Source of the DNA: a virus
Reading direction: 5' to 3' (one strand)
IMG/VR virus record: IMGVR_UViG_3300017786_000134
Coordinates: 1 to 24,542 of that record
Length of the DNA: 24,542 bases
Made by a program: the position numbers and the translations under genes. The notes beneath the pieces were generated by a model. That model had not been told where the DNA came from. It made no database searches and was given only the letters and a program-made list of their open reading frames with translations. Every line of letters starts with the position of its first letter. Position 1 is the first letter of the stretch. Shown here one piece after another: positions 2,890-9,375 of the stretch.

Positions 2890-3132
2890 ATGACAGCACA
2901 AATTTATGACGGTTATTATGTTGAGCCGATAGAGATTAAAACTGGTTATGGTTATAGCGTTGATTGTTACGGAGATATAGATAGCGATTCAGTTATCGTT
3001 ATGGCTTTTAATGATGAAAACTTTGACGGTATTTCTGAGTCTAGCTTTGACACTTGGAGTGAAGCAGTTAAAGAGTGCTCTGATTACGCAAAATCGGTAG
3101 GAACAACATTAATTCAGTTGGAGGCAGAATAA
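2890..3132 (+). CDS. Hypothetical early protein (80 aa)
   Basis: First gene of the early operon, just downstream of the promoter at 2833-2860, with a strong GAGGAGA site before its ATG. The product is acidic and rich in Tyr, Asp, Ser and Glu (DCYGDIDSDSVIVMAFNDENFDG), mixed beta strands then a C-terminal helix. No cysteines pattern, signal or membrane segment. Unrecognised. First-expressed small acidic phage proteins often target host factors or act as DNA mimics; that is only a possibility here. Its stop overlaps the next start (TAATG). Confidence 0.7.
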   Translation: MTAQIYDGYYVEPIEIKTGYGYSVDCYGDIDSDSVIVMAFNDENFDGISESSFDTWSEAVKECSDYAKSVGTTLIQLEAE

Positions 3133-3332
3133 TGCAATACACCACAGCCAGCCAGTACGCTAAATTTCACGGTATGAAGTCACTGAAGGAAGTAGCCGAT
3201 ATGACTAATCAATCGTCAGAGACTCTAATAAATTGGTACAAAAAGAAGCGCGAATTGTTCGAGGTCGTTATAGTTGGCTGCGTAGTCACTAAACGAATGA
3301 ATGAGATGGAGCAGGAAGTAGATGGGGATTAA
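3132..3332 (+). CDS. Small HTH-like protein (66 aa)
   Basis: ATG overlaps the stop of the upstream gene. Residues about 16-45 (KSLKEVADMTNQSSETLINWYKKK) read like a helix-turn-helix with a basic recognition helix, suggesting a DNA-binding regulator. The C-terminal part is acidic (EMEQEVDGD). Its last codons overlap the start of the NinG-like gene by 11 nt. The family is not identified. A role in early-gene control is plausible from position and fold only. Confidence 0.6.
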   Translation: MQYTTASQYAKFHGMKSLKEVADMTNQSSETLINWYKKKRELFEVVIVGCVVTKRMNEMEQEVDGD

Positions 3333-3753
3333 GAGAGATGCGGCAGATAACTGGTTTTCAAAATGTGTCCGTGAGCGCACTAATTACACCTGTGAAGTGT
3401 GCTTCAAGCAATATGAGCGCAGCTCAACTGGTCTGCATTGCTCTCATTACCACGGTAGGGCAAATAAATCCGTTAGATGGCACGGTGACAATGCCTTCGC
3501 CCACTGTTTCGGCTGTCATCAAAAAATGGGAGCAAATCCACACGAGTTTCAGATATGGGCAGAGAATATATTAGGCTCTGGTAGGTATGACCTACTAACT
3601 GAACGCAAGAATGATACCAATTTAGGCAAGCAGTTACATAAAGATAATAAAGCAGGTTTAATTGCTAAGCACTATAAAGAGCAACACGCCATATTGTCGG
3701 AAAAGCGGGCAGATGGTGAAACTATGTACTTAGACTTTGAGGAATACTCGTGA
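3322..3753 (+). CDS. ninG: NinG/Rap-like HNH-type recombination protein (143 aa)
   Basis: ATG at 3322 has AGGAAG six nt upstream. The protein carries a zinc-finger/HNH-like core: C24-x2-C27, then LHCSHYHGRA (residues 38-47), N57, and HCFGC (61-65). This matches the order seen in phage lambda NinG (Rap), a structure-specific endonuclease acting on recombination intermediates, and in related HNH phage proteins. The C-terminal third is basic and helical. A NinB-like gene further along the same operon (7891-8352) supports the reading, because ninB and ninG accompany each other in lambdoid phages. An unrelated HNH nuclease is the alternative. Confidence 0.6.
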   Translation: MGIKRDAADNWFSKCVRERTNYTCEVCFKQYERSSTGLHCSHYHGRANKSVRWHGDNAFAHCFGCHQKMGANPHEFQIWAENILGSGRYDLLTERKNDTNLGKQLHKDNKAGLIAKHYKEQHAILSEKRADGETMYLDFEEYS

Positions 3754-3941
3754 GCGCAGTAAATAAATTTAGAGAAAAGCAAAAAGAAAAGGGCAACGCA
3801 GAAGTGCGTGGTCTATATTGTAAAAAAGAATGTCACAAAGACATCAAGTCACACATTAAACACATTTTAAGATTACACGACAAAGGGATAACCGATGAGC
3901 AAATCCGTAGTAGACTGGCTAGAATTGATCTGGAAAATTGA
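3750..3941 (+). CDS. Small basic protein (63 aa)
   Basis: Starts at GTG 3750, overlapping the TGA of the upstream gene (GTGA), with GAGG eight nt upstream. Very basic N-terminus (NKFREKQKEKGN), a central KKECHKDIKSHIKH stretch with a lone Cys-His pair, and a C-terminal helix. Its end overlaps the initiator gene by 47 nt in another frame, which supports tight translational coupling. No family recognised. Confidence 0.55.
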   Translation: MSAVNKFREKQKEKGNAEVRGLYCKKECHKDIKSHIKHILRLHDKGITDEQIRSRLARIDLEN

Positions 3942-4557
3942 TCTACCTAGCAACTCCAAATATGTAGCAAGTTACCTTAGAACTTATATGAATATGAAGC
4001 GCGACCTTTGCTGGCCGTCAGTTGGTCGTATAAGCAAAGAAACTGGGCTATCTGAGCAAACAGTAAGGGCGCACATCAAGAAGCTAGAGGCGGCTGGGTG
4101 GCTTACAGTAGATAGAAGTGAAGGTGGGCATAGTGGCACAACAAATCGCTATAAAGCGACCATACCTGATACCCCTGCAACCATTGCACCCCTGCAACCA
4201 TTAGACCCCACCCCTGCAACAGTTGCACCCCTACCCCTGCAACCATTAGAGGGGAATAAACAATACAATAAACAAGTAAATAAACAATTATTAAATAAAG
4301 AGATTCCTGATGAGTTAGCTGCGGCTGCAACTGCGTACTGGCTCAAGAAGGGCGCGAGCCTCGATATGGAAGAACAGTGGCTGTTATTTACTTCTCATCA
4401 TCAAGCTAAAAAGACTAATGTTCACAACTACGCGGCGGCTTGGAGAACGTGGTACGTCAATGCCGTTAGATTCAATGCTAATCGACCTGAGAAAAAGGAA
4501 AAGGTTTTCAATAGATTACAAGATGATTCTTGGGCAAATGGCTTTATTGATAAATAA
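3895..4557 (+). CDS. HTH replication initiator, lambda O-like (220 aa)
   Basis: ATG at 3895 with AAAGGGAT about nine nt upstream. The N-terminal domain (about 20-88) is a winged helix-turn-helix: CWPSVGRISKETGLSEQTVRAHIKKLEAAGWL, the pattern of phage replication proteins of the lambda O/Rep type. Next comes a Pro/Thr-rich linker (about 91-120) built of repeated PATxAPLxPL words, then Asn/Lys-Gln repeats (NKQYNKQVNKQ), then a C-terminal domain rich in Trp and Ala (about 135-220). As in lambda O, the linker DNA is itself repetitive (four iterons plus an AT-rich tract, see 4172-4302), so the protein probably binds its own gene to start replication. No helicase or helicase loader gene is visible, so host helicase recruitment is inferred. 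Confidence 0.75.
   Translation: MSKSVVDWLELIWKIDLPSNSKYVASYLRTYMNMKRDLCWPSVGRISKETGLSEQTVRAHIKKLEAAGWLTVDRSEGGHSGTTNRYKATIPDTPATIAPLQPLDPTPATVAPLPLQPLEGNKQYNKQVNKQLLNKEIPDELAAAATAYWLKKGASLDMEEQWLLFTSHHQAKKTNVHNYAAAWRTWYVNAVRFNANRPEKKEKVFNRLQDDSWANGFIDK
4172..4302. other. Candidate replication origin: four iterons plus AT-rich tract
   Basis: Inside the initiator gene, CCCCTGCAACCATT occurs at 4172-4185, 4189-4202 and 4234-4247, and a variant CCCCTGCAACAGTT at 4211-4224. Start-to-start spacings are 17, 22 and 23 bp. Two copies form dyads (TGCAACAGTTGCA at 4215-4227 is a perfect inverted repeat; TGCAA-CCA-TTGCA at 4176-4188). The array is followed at once by about 50 bp almost free of G and C (4254-4302), a likely unwinding element. 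The order iterons then AT-rich DNA within the initiator gene copies the plan of the lambda origin. Confidence 0.7.
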
Positions 4558-4570
4558 TTTAAAATAAAGT

Positions 4571-4599
4571 TTGACAAATGATAGATATGCGCGTAATCT
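4571..4599 (+). promoter_or_regulatory. Second early promoter (sigma70-like)
   Basis: A consensus TTGACA (4571-4576) is followed after 17 bp by TAATCT (4594-4599), a weaker -10. It lies in the 80-bp gap after the initiator gene and before the gene at 4638, the first real gap in the early operon. The GCGCGTA word just upstream of the -10 is shared with the first promoter. Confidence 0.55.
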
Positions 4600-4637
4600 T
4601 ATAAACATCAAGTCATCAAATGCAAAGGGAGCATAAA

Positions 4638-4910
4638 ATGATAAACGATAACCCAGCACGAGTAGCACCTCCAGAGTCACCAGTTGAGCCAGACCTTAGA
4701 AAGTTGAAGTACGATTTTCTACACGATTATCTCGACAGCGATAATACTGACTCTGCTTTCCACGAAGCCTTAGAAGATCACATTTTTGAGAGCGGCTTAA
4801 TCCACCACTGGTTGCGTAAACTATACACTCATAAAGCTGACCAAGTGCAGCTGGATATGCAAGACGTTCTTAGTGATTTTGTATCAGACTATATTGAGGC
4901 GAAGCTATGA
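4638..4910 (+). CDS. Hypothetical protein (90 aa)
   Basis: An in-frame ATG exists at 4620, but AGGGAG (4627-4632) sits five nt before the ATG at 4638, so the later start is chosen. The product is acidic and helical with a Pro-rich N-terminus (ARVAPPESPVEPD) and aromatic/His residues (HHWLRKLYTHK). It is the first gene after the second promoter. No family recognised; no membrane segment. Its stop overlaps the next ATG (ATGA). Confidence 0.65.
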   Translation: MINDNPARVAPPESPVEPDLRKLKYDFLHDYLDSDNTDSAFHEALEDHIFESGLIHHWLRKLYTHKADQVQLDMQDVLSDFVSDYIEAKL

Positions 4911-5140
4911 AAACTAAAGAATTGAAAGGCGCGTTAGTTGATGAATCTATCGGTGACGCTCACTCTCACAAAGAGTGGGCTGGCTGGTTGGAAGCAAACC
5001 TAATGTCGATGATGGCCGATTACGCTAGAGAAGCTGGTTATCCGAATGGTTATGAGTTCGGTAAAGGTATGGAAGCAATGGCTCTTGAGATATGGGAGCT
5101 AATGAACGATAAGCATCAAGAAGAAGGAGTACCATTCTAA
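4907..5140 (+). CDS. Hypothetical protein (77 aa)
   Basis: ATG overlaps the TGA of the upstream gene. Acidic, helical, rich in Met, Trp and Glu (HKEWAGWLEANLMSMMADYAREAGYPNGYEFGKGMEAMALEIWELM). It looks like a compact soluble helical protein. Unrecognised. It continues the coupled run of small early genes; the stop overlaps the start of the zinc-ribbon gene (TAATG). Confidence 0.65.
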   Translation: MKTKELKGALVDESIGDAHSHKEWAGWLEANLMSMMADYAREAGYPNGYEFGKGMEAMALEIWELMNDKHQEEGVPF

Positions 5141-5280
5141 TGGCTATGTATACTTGCGATAACTGTAATGAACTGAAAGACGATGACTGGTCGCCCTGCA
5201 CCGCTACTAAAACGATGGACTGGGTTTGCGAGGATTGCTTGCCCGAAGTTGAAGAAGAAGAAGATGAGCAGACCAGTTAA
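5140..5280 (+). CDS. Small zinc-ribbon protein (46 aa)
   Basis: ATG at 5140-5142 overlaps the previous stop. The 46 residues contain two CxxC knuckles (C6-x2-C9 and C30-x2-C33) plus C20, followed by a poly-Glu acidic tail (EVEEEEDEQTS). This is the look of a one-domain zinc ribbon. Such small phage zinc ribbons can bind nucleic acid or host proteins; the function is not known. AAGAAGGAG upstream is a good ribosome site. Its end overlaps the next gene by 17 nt. Confidence 0.65.
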   Translation: MAMYTCDNCNELKDDDWSPCTATKTMDWVCEDCLPEVEEEEDEQTS

Positions 5281-5560
5281 ATTTACTCCTGCTACATTTC
5301 AGCACAGAGGGACTGCCTACCAAAAACATCACGATCGAATGATAGGCGGCTCAAGAAGATTTATAGCTAACGAGCCTTGCCCGATATGCGGAGATTATCT
5401 TAGAAAGTGGAGAACGCAGAGAGAAGATCAAAAAACGTCAGCTTGTGTTAGCTGTACACAGGAAGCAAAAAACAAAAAAGCAGATAAAGTTAAATGCGAT
5501 AAACGCAGAGCAATTGAAGAACACCAAAACAAAATGGGAGATTACGATGACTATTTATAA
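5264..5560 (+). CDS. Zinc-finger phage protein (98 aa)
   Basis: The start at ATG 5264 (MSRPVKFTP) is preferred; the frame is open further upstream only because it overlaps the zinc-ribbon gene. Features: basic N-terminal half, two CxxC pairs (CPIC near residue 42-45 and CVSC near 64-67) forming a likely zinc knuckle, and a basic C-terminal helix (KNKKADKVKCDKRRAIEEHQ). Probably nucleic-acid binding. It overlaps the ERF gene by 14 nt and encodes that gene's ribosome site, so the two are likely coupled. The family is not identified. Confidence 0.6.
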   Translation: MSRPVKFTPATFQHRGTAYQKHHDRMIGGSRRFIANEPCPICGDYLRKWRTQREDQKTSACVSCTQEAKNKKADKVKCDKRRAIEEHQNKMGDYDDYL

Positions 5561-6149
5561 AAAATTAGCAACAGCTAGAACCAAACTTCAATCTATGCCG
5601 CTCAAGAAATCAGGGCATAATAAGTTTGCTGGTTACAACTACTTCGAACTAGGTGACTTTTTACCTGCCTGTAACGATATATTCGCAGACCTAGGCTTAT
5701 GCGATGTTATTAGATTTGGTATAGACCAAGCTACACTCACTGTCTACGATACTGAGACAAGCGAGAGCGTAGTATTCAGCTCACCAATGGCATCAGCTAA
5801 TCTAAAAGGCTGCCACGATATTCAGAATCTAGGCGCGAGCCAGACCTACTTACGCAGATACTTATGGCAAACCACTATGGGTATGGTTGAGCACGATGCG
5901 CTAGACGCTTCTAAGCCCGACCAGCCTAGCCGCGAGGAGTTATGTGCTAATGCGGTACACGCTCACATTGAATCGCTAACGTATATCCGAAGAATGTTAG
6001 GCGACCCTACACCTGAAAATGTTGCACTAGCTAAAGAAGCATTCGGTGAGATACCTGATGCTGACCAGCGAGCTATGTGGGTTGCTCCAACTAAATGCTC
6101 TACTGCATTCTTAACAACCGAGGAGCGTAGACTGCTTAAAGGCGCGTGA
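5547..6149 (+). CDS. erf: ERF-family single-strand annealing protein (200 aa)
   Basis: Start at ATG 5547 because GGGAG lies at the right distance; the longer open frame upstream overlaps another gene. ERF hallmarks are visible: an N-terminal helix (KKLATARTKLQSM), AGYNYFELGDFLPACNDIFADLGL (about 28-51), a beta-rich middle, and QNLGASQTYLRRYLWQTTMGMVEHDALDAS (about 95-124), which matches the conserved GS..TY..RY...GI...D signature. ERF proteins anneal complementary single strands in phage recombination and replication. Together with the NinB/NinG-like proteins, the SSB-like protein and the PD-(D/E)XK nuclease it makes a recombination set. The C-terminal 70 residues are more variable. Confidence 0.8.
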   Translation: MTIYKKLATARTKLQSMPLKKSGHNKFAGYNYFELGDFLPACNDIFADLGLCDVIRFGIDQATLTVYDTETSESVVFSSPMASANLKGCHDIQNLGASQTYLRRYLWQTTMGMVEHDALDASKPDQPSREELCANAVHAHIESLTYIRRMLGDPTPENVALAKEAFGEIPDADQRAMWVAPTKCSTAFLTTEERRLLKGA

Positions 6150-6367
6150 GAATATCTGACGACCTAAAGATGAGGATAGTTAAGATGCTGCACTTTACAC
6201 AATTAACTTATTCTGAAATATCACGCTCGATAGGTGTACGAAGAGAGGTAGTTTATAAGGTCGCCAAAGATGCTCTACAAGATAAGCCACTAACCGATGA
6301 GGAGCTGGCTTGCACGAACGTAACTAAAGGCTTTATGAATTATTTAGAGAGAAATAGAAATGAGTGA
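6146..6367 (+). CDS. Small HTH protein (73 aa)
   Basis: GTG at 6146 overlaps the stop of the ERF gene (GTGA). Residues about 8-42 (MRIVKMLHFTQLTYSEISRSIGVRREVVYKVAKDAL) form a clear helix-turn-helix of the kind seen in sigma region 4 and transposase-like DNA-binding modules. The rest is acidic then basic. Probably a regulator of early or late genes, but the target is unknown. Its stop overlaps the next start. Confidence 0.6.
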   Translation: MRISDDLKMRIVKMLHFTQLTYSEISRSIGVRREVVYKVAKDALQDKPLTDEELACTNVTKGFMNYLERNRNE

Positions 6368-6533
6368 TGATAAAGTACTTGATAAGTTAGATTTAAAGGA
6401 ATGGGAAAGCCTGTTTAAGTTAAGAGATGCTTGGATTAAAAGCGATGATGTAGAGCCAGAAATAGCAAGCGATCTTTTTTATACTACGGCTCGGTATTTA
6501 GCGAATAAGCAAGGGGCTAGGAGAGATGGATGA
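6360..6533 (+). CDS. Small acidic helical protein (57 aa)
   Basis: ATG at 6360 overlaps the end of the HTH gene by 8 nt; stop TGA at 6531-6533. The peptide is mostly helical and acidic at first (MSDDKVLDKLDLKEWESLF) and basic at the end (NKQGARRDG). Unrecognised. It is too short for usual gene-calling cut-offs but fits the coupled operon, and its end encodes the AGGAG ribosome site of the next small gene. Confidence 0.5.
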   Translation: MSDDKVLDKLDLKEWESLFKLRDAWIKSDDVEPEIASDLFYTTARYLANKQGARRDG

Positions 6534-6612
6534 TGAGGATTGGTTCGAGGTTATTGTTGGTTTAATAATAATTGGTGTCGGTTTTATTTTTATAATTCAA
6601 ACTTTACATTAA
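6526..6612 (+). CDS. Tiny single-pass membrane peptide (28 aa)
   Basis: ATG at 6526 lies five nt after AGGAG; stop TAA at 6610-6612. Acidic N-terminus (MDDEDWFEV) followed by a clean hydrophobic helix (IVGLIIIGVGFIFII) and a short tail. One transmembrane segment with the N-terminus probably outside or short cytosolic. It sits directly before another membrane gene. The function is unknown; a small inhibitor or membrane-disturbing peptide is possible. Confidence 0.5.
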   Translation: MDDEDWFEVIVGLIIIGVGFIFIIQTLH

Positions 6613-6623
6613 GGAGTAAGAAA

Positions 6624-6806
6624 ATGAGCGAAGAAAATTCTGTATATATTGCACTGGCGTTAATGTTTGTTTCAGTAGGCGCGTGGTTTACACATATTAT
6701 CCACTGTCTTATCCACGCTAAGTATCTTTTACTTATTGCTGGAGCGTTTATGTTCCCTGTTGGAATCATCCACGGTGTCGGCATTTGGTTTGGGGTTAGC
6801 TGGTAA
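6624..6806 (+). CDS. Two-pass membrane protein (60 aa)
   Basis: ATG at 6624 with AAGGAG nine nt upstream; an earlier in-frame ATG at 6540 lies inside the preceding peptide gene and lacks a ribosome site. Two hydrophobic helices (about 8-24, IALALMFVSVGAWFTHI; and about 34-55, LLLIAGAFMFPVGIIHGVGIWF) are joined by a His-rich loop (HCLIHAK). The four histidines and Cys could bind metal. Not in the lysis module, so a holin role is less likely than an early membrane function such as superinfection control; that is speculation. Confidence 0.6.
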   Translation: MSEENSVYIALALMFVSVGAWFTHIIHCLIHAKYLLLIAGAFMFPVGIIHGVGIWFGVSW

Positions 6807-6970
6807 TGGGTACTAAGGGTATTGATCAACGCCCTTATGATCGAGATAAATTTAATAATAACTTCGATGCAATTTTTGGTAAGAAGAAAGAAAAAAAAGA
6901 GGAGGTGAAACTTGAACGAAGAAGTAATACAGGAAGGCGATCTTATGATCGCAATAAAGAAAGCACCTGA
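6806..6970 (+). CDS. Small basic phage protein (54 aa)
   Basis: ATG overlaps the TAA of the membrane gene (TAATG). The sequence (MGTKGIDQRPYDRDKFNNNFDAIFGKKKEKK) resembles a small protein that I recall in many phage genomes with an RPYDRxKFxxNFDxIFGKK-like core. The C-terminal 23 residues overlap the next gene by 59 nt in another frame and are strongly basic. No domain with known function. The SD is weak, so translation probably depends on coupling to the upstream gene. Confidence 0.5.
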   Translation: MGTKGIDQRPYDRDKFNNNFDAIFGKKKEKKEEVKLERRSNTGRRSYDRNKEST

Positions 6971-7115
6971 TGGTGAGTCGTATTTTTTATTAATATCAAC
7001 CGACCAGACAACAAGTATTTTTGATGTCGGTGATAAAGACGACCTAAAAGCATTGGGTGAGATATTTTTAAATCTTAGAAATTCAATAATTGATATAACA
7101 AGGGAGTTACATTGA
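6912..7115 (+). CDS. Hypothetical protein with TTG start (67 aa)
   Basis: TTG at 6912 is preceded by a near-perfect AGAGGAGGTG ribosome site, so the TTG start is secure. The product is acidic with alternating beta and helix (IAIKKAPDGESYFLLIST, then DKDDLKALGEIFLNLRNSI). The pattern suggests a small alpha/beta soluble protein. Unrecognised. It overlaps the upstream basic gene by 59 nt and its TGA overlaps the next ATG. Confidence 0.65.
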   Translation: MNEEVIQEGDLMIAIKKAPDGESYFLLISTDQTTSIFDVGDKDDLKALGEIFLNLRNSIIDITRELH

Positions 7116-7429
7116 TGCTTAATTTAATAGATGCAGAAGTGCAGTTTGAAGAAAGAAAAGAGCAAGCGTTTAAAGAAAAACAAAAAGTCACTCAATACAA
7201 CAGGGTTAAGCAGCACTTAGAATCAGGTAAGACGCTAACAAGATTAGAGGCTTTAAATGATTTAGGTATCTTAAACCCAACCGCACGAATATCAGAATTA
7301 AGGGCAGATGGAATACCTGTAGAAACAAGAATGGTTGGTGTTTATAACCGATGGGACGCGAAAGTTAAGGTTGCCCAGTGGTTTATAACCCCACCAGAAA
7401 ACCCCTTAGTAAGACGTACTCGCAGCTAG
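7115..7429 (+). CDS. Helix-turn-helix protein, HTH_39-like (104 aa)
   Basis: ATG at 7115, eight nt after AGGGAG; a TTG three bases earlier is less well spaced. A charged N-terminal helix (about 8-27) leads into a winged-helix region (about 28-75): QYNRVKQHLESGKTLTRLEALNDLGILNPTARISELRADGIPV. This matches the phage HTH_39-type layout (RxxxHLxxGxxLTxLEAxxxxGIxxxxARIxELRxxGxxV). Likely binds DNA as a regulator or replication accessory factor. The tail is Pro- and Arg-rich. Followed by two hairpins and the SSB-like gene. Confidence 0.7.
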   Translation: MLNLIDAEVQFEERKEQAFKEKQKVTQYNRVKQHLESGKTLTRLEALNDLGILNPTARISELRADGIPVETRMVGVYNRWDAKVKVAQWFITPPENPLVRRTRS

Positions 7430-7477
7430 GCAGCACTTCCTTGCGCTGCCGCTGGTCAGCGTTACCTAGCAACCAGC
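7429..7477 (+). other. Two adjacent inverted repeats between early genes
   Basis: GGCAGC (7429-7434) pairs with GCTGCC (7445-7450), and GCTGGT (7451-7456) pairs with ACCAGC (7472-7477). Neither is followed by a T run, so these are not standard terminators. They lie in an 80-nt gap, rare in this tightly packed operon, just before the SSB-like gene, and may tune mRNA processing or stability. Confidence 0.4.
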
Positions 7478-7509
7478 AACCTTATTAATTAACTAAAGAG
7501 AGTATAACT

Positions 7510-7788
7510 ATGCAATACGATGATGATAACAAAGGTGCACTATGGCCCGCCAAAGACCGAGCTTCTGATAAGCACCCACACTTCACTGGTAAAGCTATGG
7601 TGGGCGGGGTTGAGTATTATGTTTCAGGCTGGAAGCGCGACCCTAACGGCAACCCCAAAGCACCTTCGGTTAAGTTTAGCTTCAAGGCCGTAGACGAAGT
7701 TAAAGCGAAAACTATGCAACAAGTACCACAACAAACGCAGCCAGCTCAGGCAGCACCGATTGATTTTGATGATGATATTCCGTTTTAG
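7510..7788 (+). CDS. SSB-like single-stranded DNA-binding protein (92 aa)
   Basis: ATG at 7510 after AAAGAGAG. The C-terminus is DFDDDIPF, the acidic tip (DDDIPF) by which bacterial SSB binds its partner proteins. It is joined by a Gln/Pro/Ala-rich linker (TMQQVPQQTQPAQAAP) to a short beta-rich N-terminal domain (about 1-62) with GALWP, HPHFTGKAMVGGVEYYVSGW and aromatic residues spaced as in a small OB-like fold. It is much shorter than E. coli SSB (178 aa), so this is a minimal phage form. The role, coating single strands and recruiting partners in replication or recombination, is inferred from the tail and operon context. Confidence 0.65.
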   Translation: MQYDDDNKGALWPAKDRASDKHPHFTGKAMVGGVEYYVSGWKRDPNGNPKAPSVKFSFKAVDEVKAKTMQQVPQQTQPAQAAPIDFDDDIPF

Positions 7789-7801
7789 AGCCTTCTGCGG
7801 A

Positions 7802-7853
7802 GCTGGAAGATACCCAGCGGGGTTATGGTGACGACCTCTGATAATAAGTCACC
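7802..7853 (+). other. Inverted repeats in the gap after the SSB-like gene
   Basis: GCTGG (7802-7806) can pair with CCAGC (7814-7818), and GGTGAC (7827-7832) with GTCACC (7848-7853). No T run follows. The 102-nt gap before the next gene also holds an AT-rich stretch (about 7856-7880). The SSB-like gene is therefore bracketed on both sides by hairpin-forming gaps. Confidence 0.35.
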
Positions 7854-7890
7854 ACAATTATAAAAGGCATTTAATAAAAGGTGAGCTAAT

Positions 7891-8352
7891 GTGCGTGAAT
7901 TTATAATTAACACAGATAATCAAGATTCTGTTGATGATTTTGTTAGCTATTTAGATGAAACCTTGCAAGGCAGTGGCTTACTTAAAGTCACTGTTAAGCA
8001 GGTTAAAGACAGGTCACTGTCACAGAATGCTTTACTCCACATATGGTTTAGAGAGTACGCAGCAATGCGCCTTAATAAGCCCCTCAAGAAGATTACTCAA
8101 GACGATACCGATTCTATTAAGTTACTTGTTAAACAAGCCTGTTACGGTGACACGAAGTACGACTGGCTATGTCAGCGTATTACTAATATAGACACTGGTA
8201 TCTCAGCTTTTGTTTTAAGGTCTACCAGTAGATACGACAAGGGCGAAATGTTTATGTTTATGGAGTGGTTTCAGGCGTTCGCAGCACAAAAAGGTTTATT
8301 ACTTGAATCAATGGGTGAATACGGGAGATTAAAAGATGAAACCAACCAGTAG
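7891..8352 (+). CDS. ninB: NinB-like recombination protein (153 aa)
   Basis: GTG at 7891 with AAGGTGAGC at good spacing; the ATG two bases earlier is in another frame and closes at once. A core DRSLSQNALLHIWFREYAA (about 40-58) resembles the RSLxQNxxxWxxLxxIA signature of phage NinB (lambda Orf), a recombination mediator that helps annealing proteins act on SSB-coated DNA. The N-terminal 38 residues are beta/alpha with basic strands (LLKVTVKQVK), the C-terminal part is helical (DKGEMFMFMEWFQAFAAQKG). Placement between the SSB-like and nuclease genes and the presence of ERF fit that role. Family call is by motif only. Confidence 0.65.
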   Translation: MREFIINTDNQDSVDDFVSYLDETLQGSGLLKVTVKQVKDRSLSQNALLHIWFREYAAMRLNKPLKKITQDDTDSIKLLVKQACYGDTKYDWLCQRITNIDTGISAFVLRSTSRYDKGEMFMFMEWFQAFAAQKGLLLESMGEYGRLKDETNQ

Positions 8353-8515
8353 AGATAAATGCGAAAGTTATAAAGATATTTGCGAGGTCAGGTTCTTACT
8401 TTATATGGCGTACCAGTGCGACAGTGTGACAGAAAAGAAAAAGTTAATTGATGACGCTATGATTAAGGTTGACGCTTATATCTGGGAGGATTTTGCGGAG
8501 TACCGTACTAAATGA
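8336..8515 (+). CDS. Small early protein (59 aa)
   Basis: ATG at 8336 overlaps the NinB-like gene by 17 nt; GGGAG lies about nine nt upstream. Helical, charged, with three cysteines (C9, C16, C29) that do not form an obvious CxxC pair (DKCESYKDICEVRFLLYMAYQC). The function is unknown. The stop overlaps the start of the nuclease gene (ATGA), so it is clearly part of the same coupled run. Confidence 0.6.
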   Translation: MKPTSRDKCESYKDICEVRFLLYMAYQCDSVTEKKKLIDDAMIKVDAYIWEDFAEYRTK

Positions 8516-8940
8516 GATATGCGAGCCACTACAAAGATGACCCTAACGAAGATAGAATAATCGCTCACGCTTGTAAGGCTTGGAAGTGCCAAGCGAGAAA
8601 AATCCCACCCCATTACGTTTTAGACTTCGCTATGCTGCGTAAAGGTCAGATAGTCGGCTTTGTTGAAGTTAAGAAGCGACACTTCCACTACGATAAATTC
8701 CCAACAACAATTATCCCATTCAATAAAATAATTAAGGCTAAGGATATGCTCAGGTTCGGCTATCCGTCATTCTTTATGGTTGAGTGGAACGATAGAGTGG
8801 GCTGGGTAAACCTAGACAGTAAGCCTGAAAAGATAACCGTGGAAGGCCGTACAGACCGAGGCAGACCCGATGATATACAGCCTATGGCGCATTACAGTAT
8901 AGAACAGTTTACTTTTCTGAACTGCCAGCCAGTTGATTAG
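8512..8940 (+). CDS. PD-(D/E)XK-fold nuclease (142 aa)
   Basis: Motifs of the PD-(D/E)XK fold are visible: E13 in the first helix, VLDFAML with D38, and GFVEVKKR with E52-x-K54, separated by a beta hairpin. Size and layout fit small phage Holliday-junction resolvases and VRR-NUC-type nucleases. In this operon (ERF, NinB-like, SSB-like, NinG-like) a junction-resolving or end-processing role is likely. It is the last early gene; its 3' end overlaps the convergent lysozyme gene by 32 bp. The exact substrate cannot be read from the sequence. Confidence 0.65.
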   Translation: MRYASHYKDDPNEDRIIAHACKAWKCQARKIPPHYVLDFAMLRKGQIVGFVEVKKRHFHYDKFPTTIIPFNKIIKAKDMLRFGYPSFFMVEWNDRVGWVNLDSKPEKITVEGRTDRGRPDDIQPMAHYSIEQFTFLNCQPVD

Positions 8941-9333: not shown

Positions 9334-9375
9334 GAAAAGCTCCCAAAATCTAATAGAAAAGCTCCCAAAAATTAG
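9334..9375. repeat. 22-bp tandem duplication of a ribosome-binding region
   Basis: GAAAAGCTCCCAAAATCTAATA (9334-9355) is followed by a near copy (9356-9375). On the minus strand each gives TTTTGGGAGCTTTT; the copy nearest the lysozyme is its ribosome site. The 15-mer AAAAGCTCCCAAAAT at 9335-9349 is identical to that at 2718-2732. Confidence 0.8.

Follow-up and report, generated by a model that had tools for sequence, protein, structure and literature searches.

A probable replication origin within the linker codons of a phage HTH_36 initiator gene

A gene for a predicted replication initiator of 220 aa was identified at positions 3895-4557 of the window, which is the whole 24,542-nt stretch of DNA analysed, the 24.5-kb virus record IMGVR_UViG_3300017786_000134 of IMG/VR. 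The N-terminus of the product matched HTH_36 (PF13730) at 5e-11, above the gathering score, and the product also matched PHROG 270 and 391 (replication initiation) at 3.7e-17 and 1e-13. PF04492 (Phage_rep_O), the family in which lambda O itself scores 5.7e-36, gave no match to the window initiator at E<=0.1, and the C-terminal domain was without Pfam match. Sequence and fold searches of the PDB returned only weak or generic winged-helix matches. The AF2 model was built from 16 sequences, a previous one with five close sequences having reached a pLDDT of 41 only. The wHTH had a pLDDT of about 83 in this model. Most of the linker encoded by the iterons and the AT-rich tract listed below (residues 99-160) had values below 50 and is predicted to be disordered. 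The initiator gene belongs to a rightward module that also encodes a NinG-like nuclease, an ERF annealing protein, an SSB-like protein, NinB and a PDDEXK nuclease. No helicase loader or helicase family, P-type loaders included, was recognised among the right-arm ORFs scanned, which did not include all of the smallest ORFs; in some relatives a DnaB-type helicase gene adjoins the initiator. A GP88-family protein (PF17338, 1.4e-22) is encoded at 1205-2044 on the minus strand, beside a divergent intergenic region. The features of the locus are as follows.

3895..4557, plus strand: predicted replication initiator gene, 220 aa, with wHTH, disordered linker and helical C-terminal part (HTH_36, PHROG, AF2)
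4054..4092, plus strand: recognition helix according to the AF2 model, residues 54-66, beginning with Glu54
4054-4056, plus strand: Glu54 codon; across the family, this residue and the half-site of the iterons covary
4171..4187, plus strand: iteron 1, ACCCCTGCAACCATTGC, with the dyad TGCAAC.C.ATTGCA
4188..4204, plus strand: iteron 2, ACCCCTGCAACCATTAG, right side TAG instead of TGC
4210..4226, plus strand: iteron 3, ACCCCTGCAACAGTTGC, with the perfect dyad TGCAACAGTTGCA
4233..4254, plus strand: iteron 4, ACCCCTGCAACCATTAG plus the outer half AGGGG, right side TAG instead of TGC
4255..4302, plus strand: AT-rich tract, candidate unwinding element, 48 bp, 85% AT, directly 3' of the iterons

Four ACCCCTGCAAC[C/A][A/G]TT repeats start at 4171, 4188, 4210 and 4233, at spacings of 17, 22 and 23 bp, and exact matches to ACCCCTGCAACNRTT were found at these four places only in the 24.5 kb. 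The array scored 35, a value not approached in shuffled sequences (at most 21 for 300 synonymous-codon shuffles, at most 20 for 300 codon-order shuffles). The dyad TGCAAY.RTTGCA is present in iterons 1 and 3, and iteron 4 has an outer dyad, CCCCT..AGGGG, at 4234-4254. The motif ACCCCYGCA-N5-TGC has its left half in all four iterons and its right half in two of the four. Among the 48-mers of the right arm (2890-8940), the one with the highest AT content starts at 4254 and adjoins the array. The original prediction had described four repeats at these spacings, two of them with dyads, inside the gene of an HTH initiator and directly followed by an AT-rich tract, and the anatomy found here agrees with it on every one of these points, all four repeats lying within the ORF with the N-terminal wHTH. 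The tract was also found to contain AATAAACAA three times at a 12-bp spacing (4255-4263, 4267-4275 and 4279-4287), a triplet that the original prediction had missed. The three units (AAT AAA CAA) are unchanged in three close relatives, L001, L027 and L029, while the intervening codons vary (Tyr/Cys/Gly and Val/Ser).

The window gene was compared codon by codon with the genes of these three relatives, the proteins being 88-98% identical. Variation was observed at 100 of 217 codons, and codons 93-117 formed a run of 25 codons without any base change, the next longest run being 5 codons (permutation p<1e-5). Where the amino acid is unchanged, identical codons were in excess (for L029, Fisher p=4.7e-5). 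The window iterons are read in two frames (0, 2, 0, 2), giving TPAT[I/V]AP for iterons 1 and 3 and PLQPL for iterons 2 and 4, which argues that selection acts on the DNA. Among the relatives iterons occur in all three reading frames, and neither a protein constraint nor a protein repeat can therefore explain them. Judged from these sequence comparisons, the iteron block is under selection at the DNA level. Relatives with 60-74% amino acid identity keep three to four iterons, some of them with changed dyad centres and changed amino acids (L030, L031 and L035). An alignment of the linker across related phages had been proposed together with the original prediction, and it came out in its favour, the iteron words being kept in these three relatives where the amino acids had changed. 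Few iterons were found in two other relatives, one full copy in L033 and two degenerate copies in L032, so the copy number is not fixed. Compared with the window, the close relative L005 (4431-5096; also L034; contig IMGVR_UViG_3300046167_000434) has a frameshift in the initiator gene, with the iteron block intact; the frameshift could be a sequencing error.

Distant initiators, about 30% identical, were gathered by tblastn against phages and by scans of viral contigs. They came from phages, prophages and phage-like plasmids of Vibrio, Klebsiella, Pseudomonas, Sphingopyxis, Sphingomonas and others, and nearly all of these HTH_36 initiator genes had direct repeats in the same linker, after the wHTH. 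Most of them had the iteron ACCCCYGCA-N5-TGC or ACCCCCGAA-N5-TTC, with a spacing of 17 bp and then of about 22 bp, as in L045 (17, 17, 17, 17, 22, 22 and 22). Over all collected genes, a spacing of 17 was observed in 250 cases, 22 in 176, 21 in 45 and 23 in 42. Initiators from Vibrio, Klebsiella and Microbulbifer had other repeat words in the same place, and linker repeats were also present in related initiators of circular phage-like plasmid records (Pseudomonas, Massilia, Piscirickettsia and Microbulbifer). When viral contigs were scanned by DNA pattern only, 129 of 137 GCA pairs, with four more at contig ends, lay downstream of an HTH motif encoded by the ORF that contained them, as did 67 of 68 GAA pairs. 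Far more than a hundred related phage genes showed this layout. In most genes (e.g. L041, L039 and L383) AACC[GA]T repeats at 10-12 bp follow directly 3' of the iterons, in all three frames and at a density of 2.25 per 80 nt compared to 0.018 in the wHTH part, a difference of about 120-fold. Such repeats are absent from the window group, where AATAAACAA is found instead. The role of this second array is perhaps in melting or single-strand binding. Among the related genes are HTH_36 genes of Klebsiella, Pseudomonas, Sphingopyxis and Vibrio phages named 'primosomal protein I / replication protein O-like', which share with the window initiator a homologous wHTH and linker repeats of similar spacing, but have other C-terminal domains, the Klebsiella one resembling DnaT (3.7e-5). 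A DnaT-like C-terminal domain was considered for the window initiator as well and rejected, being supported in the Klebsiella relative only. In the records examined, the annotation of these phage genes gives the gene name and lists no iterons or origin there.

The iteron half-sites were compared with the residue at the start of the recognition helix in a table of 162 gene entries, two of which had mis-called helices (L109_APR and L161_SMR). Glu was found with GCA/TGC half-sites in 98 entries and with GAA/TTC in 2; of the Asp entries, 51 had GAA/TTC, 2 had GCA and 1 had mixed half-sites. These counts are to be read as those of a case-control design, since many of the genes had been selected for either of the two DNA patterns before the residue was looked up. 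GCA half-sites also went with Lys (4) and Ala (2) at this position. In the window, Glu54 is accompanied by six GCA/TGC and no GAA/TTC half-sites. The first covariation tables contained few switches, and a search for GAA pairs then added independent backgrounds and exceptions. Asp with GAA was found in the helix backgrounds KCSKSDRTVQ, RTCLSDRAVQ, KTGLTDRGVQ and RAGFSDRTIQ, and Glu with GCA in RTCLSERAVQ, KCSKGERTIQ, KTSKSERTVQ and the window's ETGLSEQTVR. The exceptions among Asp helices were L052 and L207 with GCA and L072 and L318 with mixed half-sites, and these four were possibly caught in transition. Glu with GAA..TTC was found in L368 and L373, both with T-E-R-G-V-Q helices, in which the Gly two residues past Glu may matter. 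On a tree built with the helix residue left out, each trait changed 10-11 times, and the independent pairs on well-supported branches gave about 5 changes in the same direction and 0 opposed, just short of significance in a sign test (p=0.06). The most direct comparison was between the near-isogenic genes L217 and L340. Their first 82 aa differ only by E50D, N55K and T79A, both half-sites of all six iterons are switched (12/12), and the linker words change accordingly from APPQEMHP to SPPNDVHP. The expectation in the original prediction that protein and origin evolve together is thus supported both by the way the half-site follows the helix residue and by the L217/L340 switch. The related statement that the repeats fix the linker words needs modification, since the words do change, and it is the DNA motif that is kept or is switched with the recognition helix.

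Origins inside initiator genes are classical. In lambda and in the Stx phages P27 and 933W the initiator gene itself holds the iterons, in four (lambda) or six (Stx) copies placed after the segment for the DNA-binding domain; the copies are imperfect dyads, and an AT-rich tract lies 3' of them (PMC7466680, PMC5043065). The window shares with lambda O and ori-lambda the position of the iterons behind the DNA-binding domain of the initiator gene and the adjoining AT-rich tract (48 bp compared to about 40 bp). However, lambda O belongs to PF04492 and the window initiator to HTH_36. The lambda iteron ATCCCTCAAAACGAGGGA has spacings of 20, 24 and 23, whereas the window has ACCCCTGCAACCATTGC at 17, 22 and 23. 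Each lambda iteron is an inverted repeat of 18-19 bp; the window unit is of 17 bp, with a clear dyad in iterons 1 and 3, an altered right half in 2 and 4 and an outer dyad in 4. Lambda also has P next to O, whereas no P gene was found in the right-arm ORFs scanned in the window. Because PF04492 is not matched, the iteron is different and no P gene was found, the window initiator, as judged by its sequence, is not lambda O itself. The lambda-like logic of the original prediction, in which the gene of the initiator holds the iterons beside an AT-rich element, agrees with every test made. Its suggestion of a distinct iteron family holds in relation to lambda ATCCCTCAAAACGAGGGA, but the family is not private to this phage, since ACCCCYGCA-N5-TGC occurs in many others. 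Covariation of an initiator DNA-binding domain with the origin is also already known, from RepA of PLE, a Vibrio cholerae satellite, where it was shown between relatives and includes module swaps (PMC8263062). PLE RepA is a RepA_N initiator with three iterons of about 30 bp in the PLE origin, amplified as non-coding DNA, and whole domains are exchanged there (PMC8263062), whereas the change in the window family is at one helix position. PICI origins are located 3' of the rep gene with iterons flanking the AT-rich region on both sides (PMC6092414), and such a plan was rejected for the window, where the iteron/AT layout is different. The apparent novelties are the iteron of the HTH_36 family with its register, the additional array of repeats, the independence of reading frame and the rule that links one helix position to the half-site; no description of an HTH_36 CCCCY-dyad iteron family was found in a literature search of partial coverage.

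The region 4171-4302, within the codons for the linker of the initiator, is very likely the replication origin of the phage, with iterons that the initiator would bind. We infer physical binding, dimer stoichiometry, melting and helicase loading at 4171-4302. Initiator dimers would bind the four 17-bp iterons through the N-terminal wHTH, and Glu54, where the recognition helix starts, would read the GCA/TGC half-site. Once loaded, the iteron array could then help to melt the AT-rich repeat tract immediately 3', and the host helicase would be loaded at the melted tract. The GC skew of the window tracks gene direction and does not locate an origin.

The sites could alternatively be bound by the initiator for autoregulation of the gene or operon, as a transcriptional roadblock or by repression, and not for replication. 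They do lie within the initiator's own transcription unit, and half-site covariation and the L217/L340 pair do not alone show replication. This explanation is nevertheless improbable, as the sites are more than 270 bp inside the gene and not at a promoter, an AT-rich repeat tract stands at a fixed place after them, and the anatomy equals that of mapped lambdoid origins. A proline-rich disordered linker grown by repeat slippage, with DNA repeats that have no function of their own, would fit the predicted disorder of the linker and the differing repeat number among relatives (4, 3 or 1-2). Slippage is hardly credible, however, in view of repeats that occur in different reading frames, 25 codons without a base change in a gene that otherwise varies, a 17/22 spacing that is fixed across distant phages, and 12 half-sites that switch together with the recognition helix. 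An origin outside this region, such as at the conserved tandem repeats of 23 bp (2719-2782), with 4171-4302 as a secondary element, is also very improbable. The intergenic region concerned (2045-2889) is divergent and AT-rich, holds 2.6 perfect copies and is in parts conserved in relatives. Its AAAGCTCCCAAAA word recurs, however, at 9336-9370, at another switch of transcription direction, which fits operator or boundary elements better, and no link of these repeats to the initiator is known, while covariation ties the iterons to it.

The balance tips slightly towards an apparently undescribed large class, in which wHTH initiators of phages and phage-plasmids carry a two-part origin in their own linker. 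The first part would consist of CCCCY-dyad iterons in a 17-then-22-bp register and in any frame, with the half-site set by the helix rule (Glu/GCA, Asp/GAA), and the second of a 10-12 bp array (AACCRT, or AATAAACAA in the window group) for melting or single-strand binding. If this is true, one or two substitutions, made along with a switch of all half-sites, could alter specificity, as in L217/L340. This natural pair lends itself to a comparison of how replicator and initiator may switch specificity together where one DNA stretch encodes both. The candidate origin would then lead to a rule that can be tested on a common kind of phage initiator, whose origins could be read from the gene and whose specificity could be predicted from one helix position. 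The frame-independent iterons clearly exemplify selection at the DNA level that shapes a disordered protein linker.

Repeats of the AAAGCTCCCAAAA type were observed in two blocks of the window, three at 23 bp in the divergent region (2719-2777) and two at 22 bp (9336-9370) where transcription converges near 9350. Seven matches were found compared to 1.3 expected, and the first block is partly conserved in relatives. These repeats are possibly operators or boundary elements.
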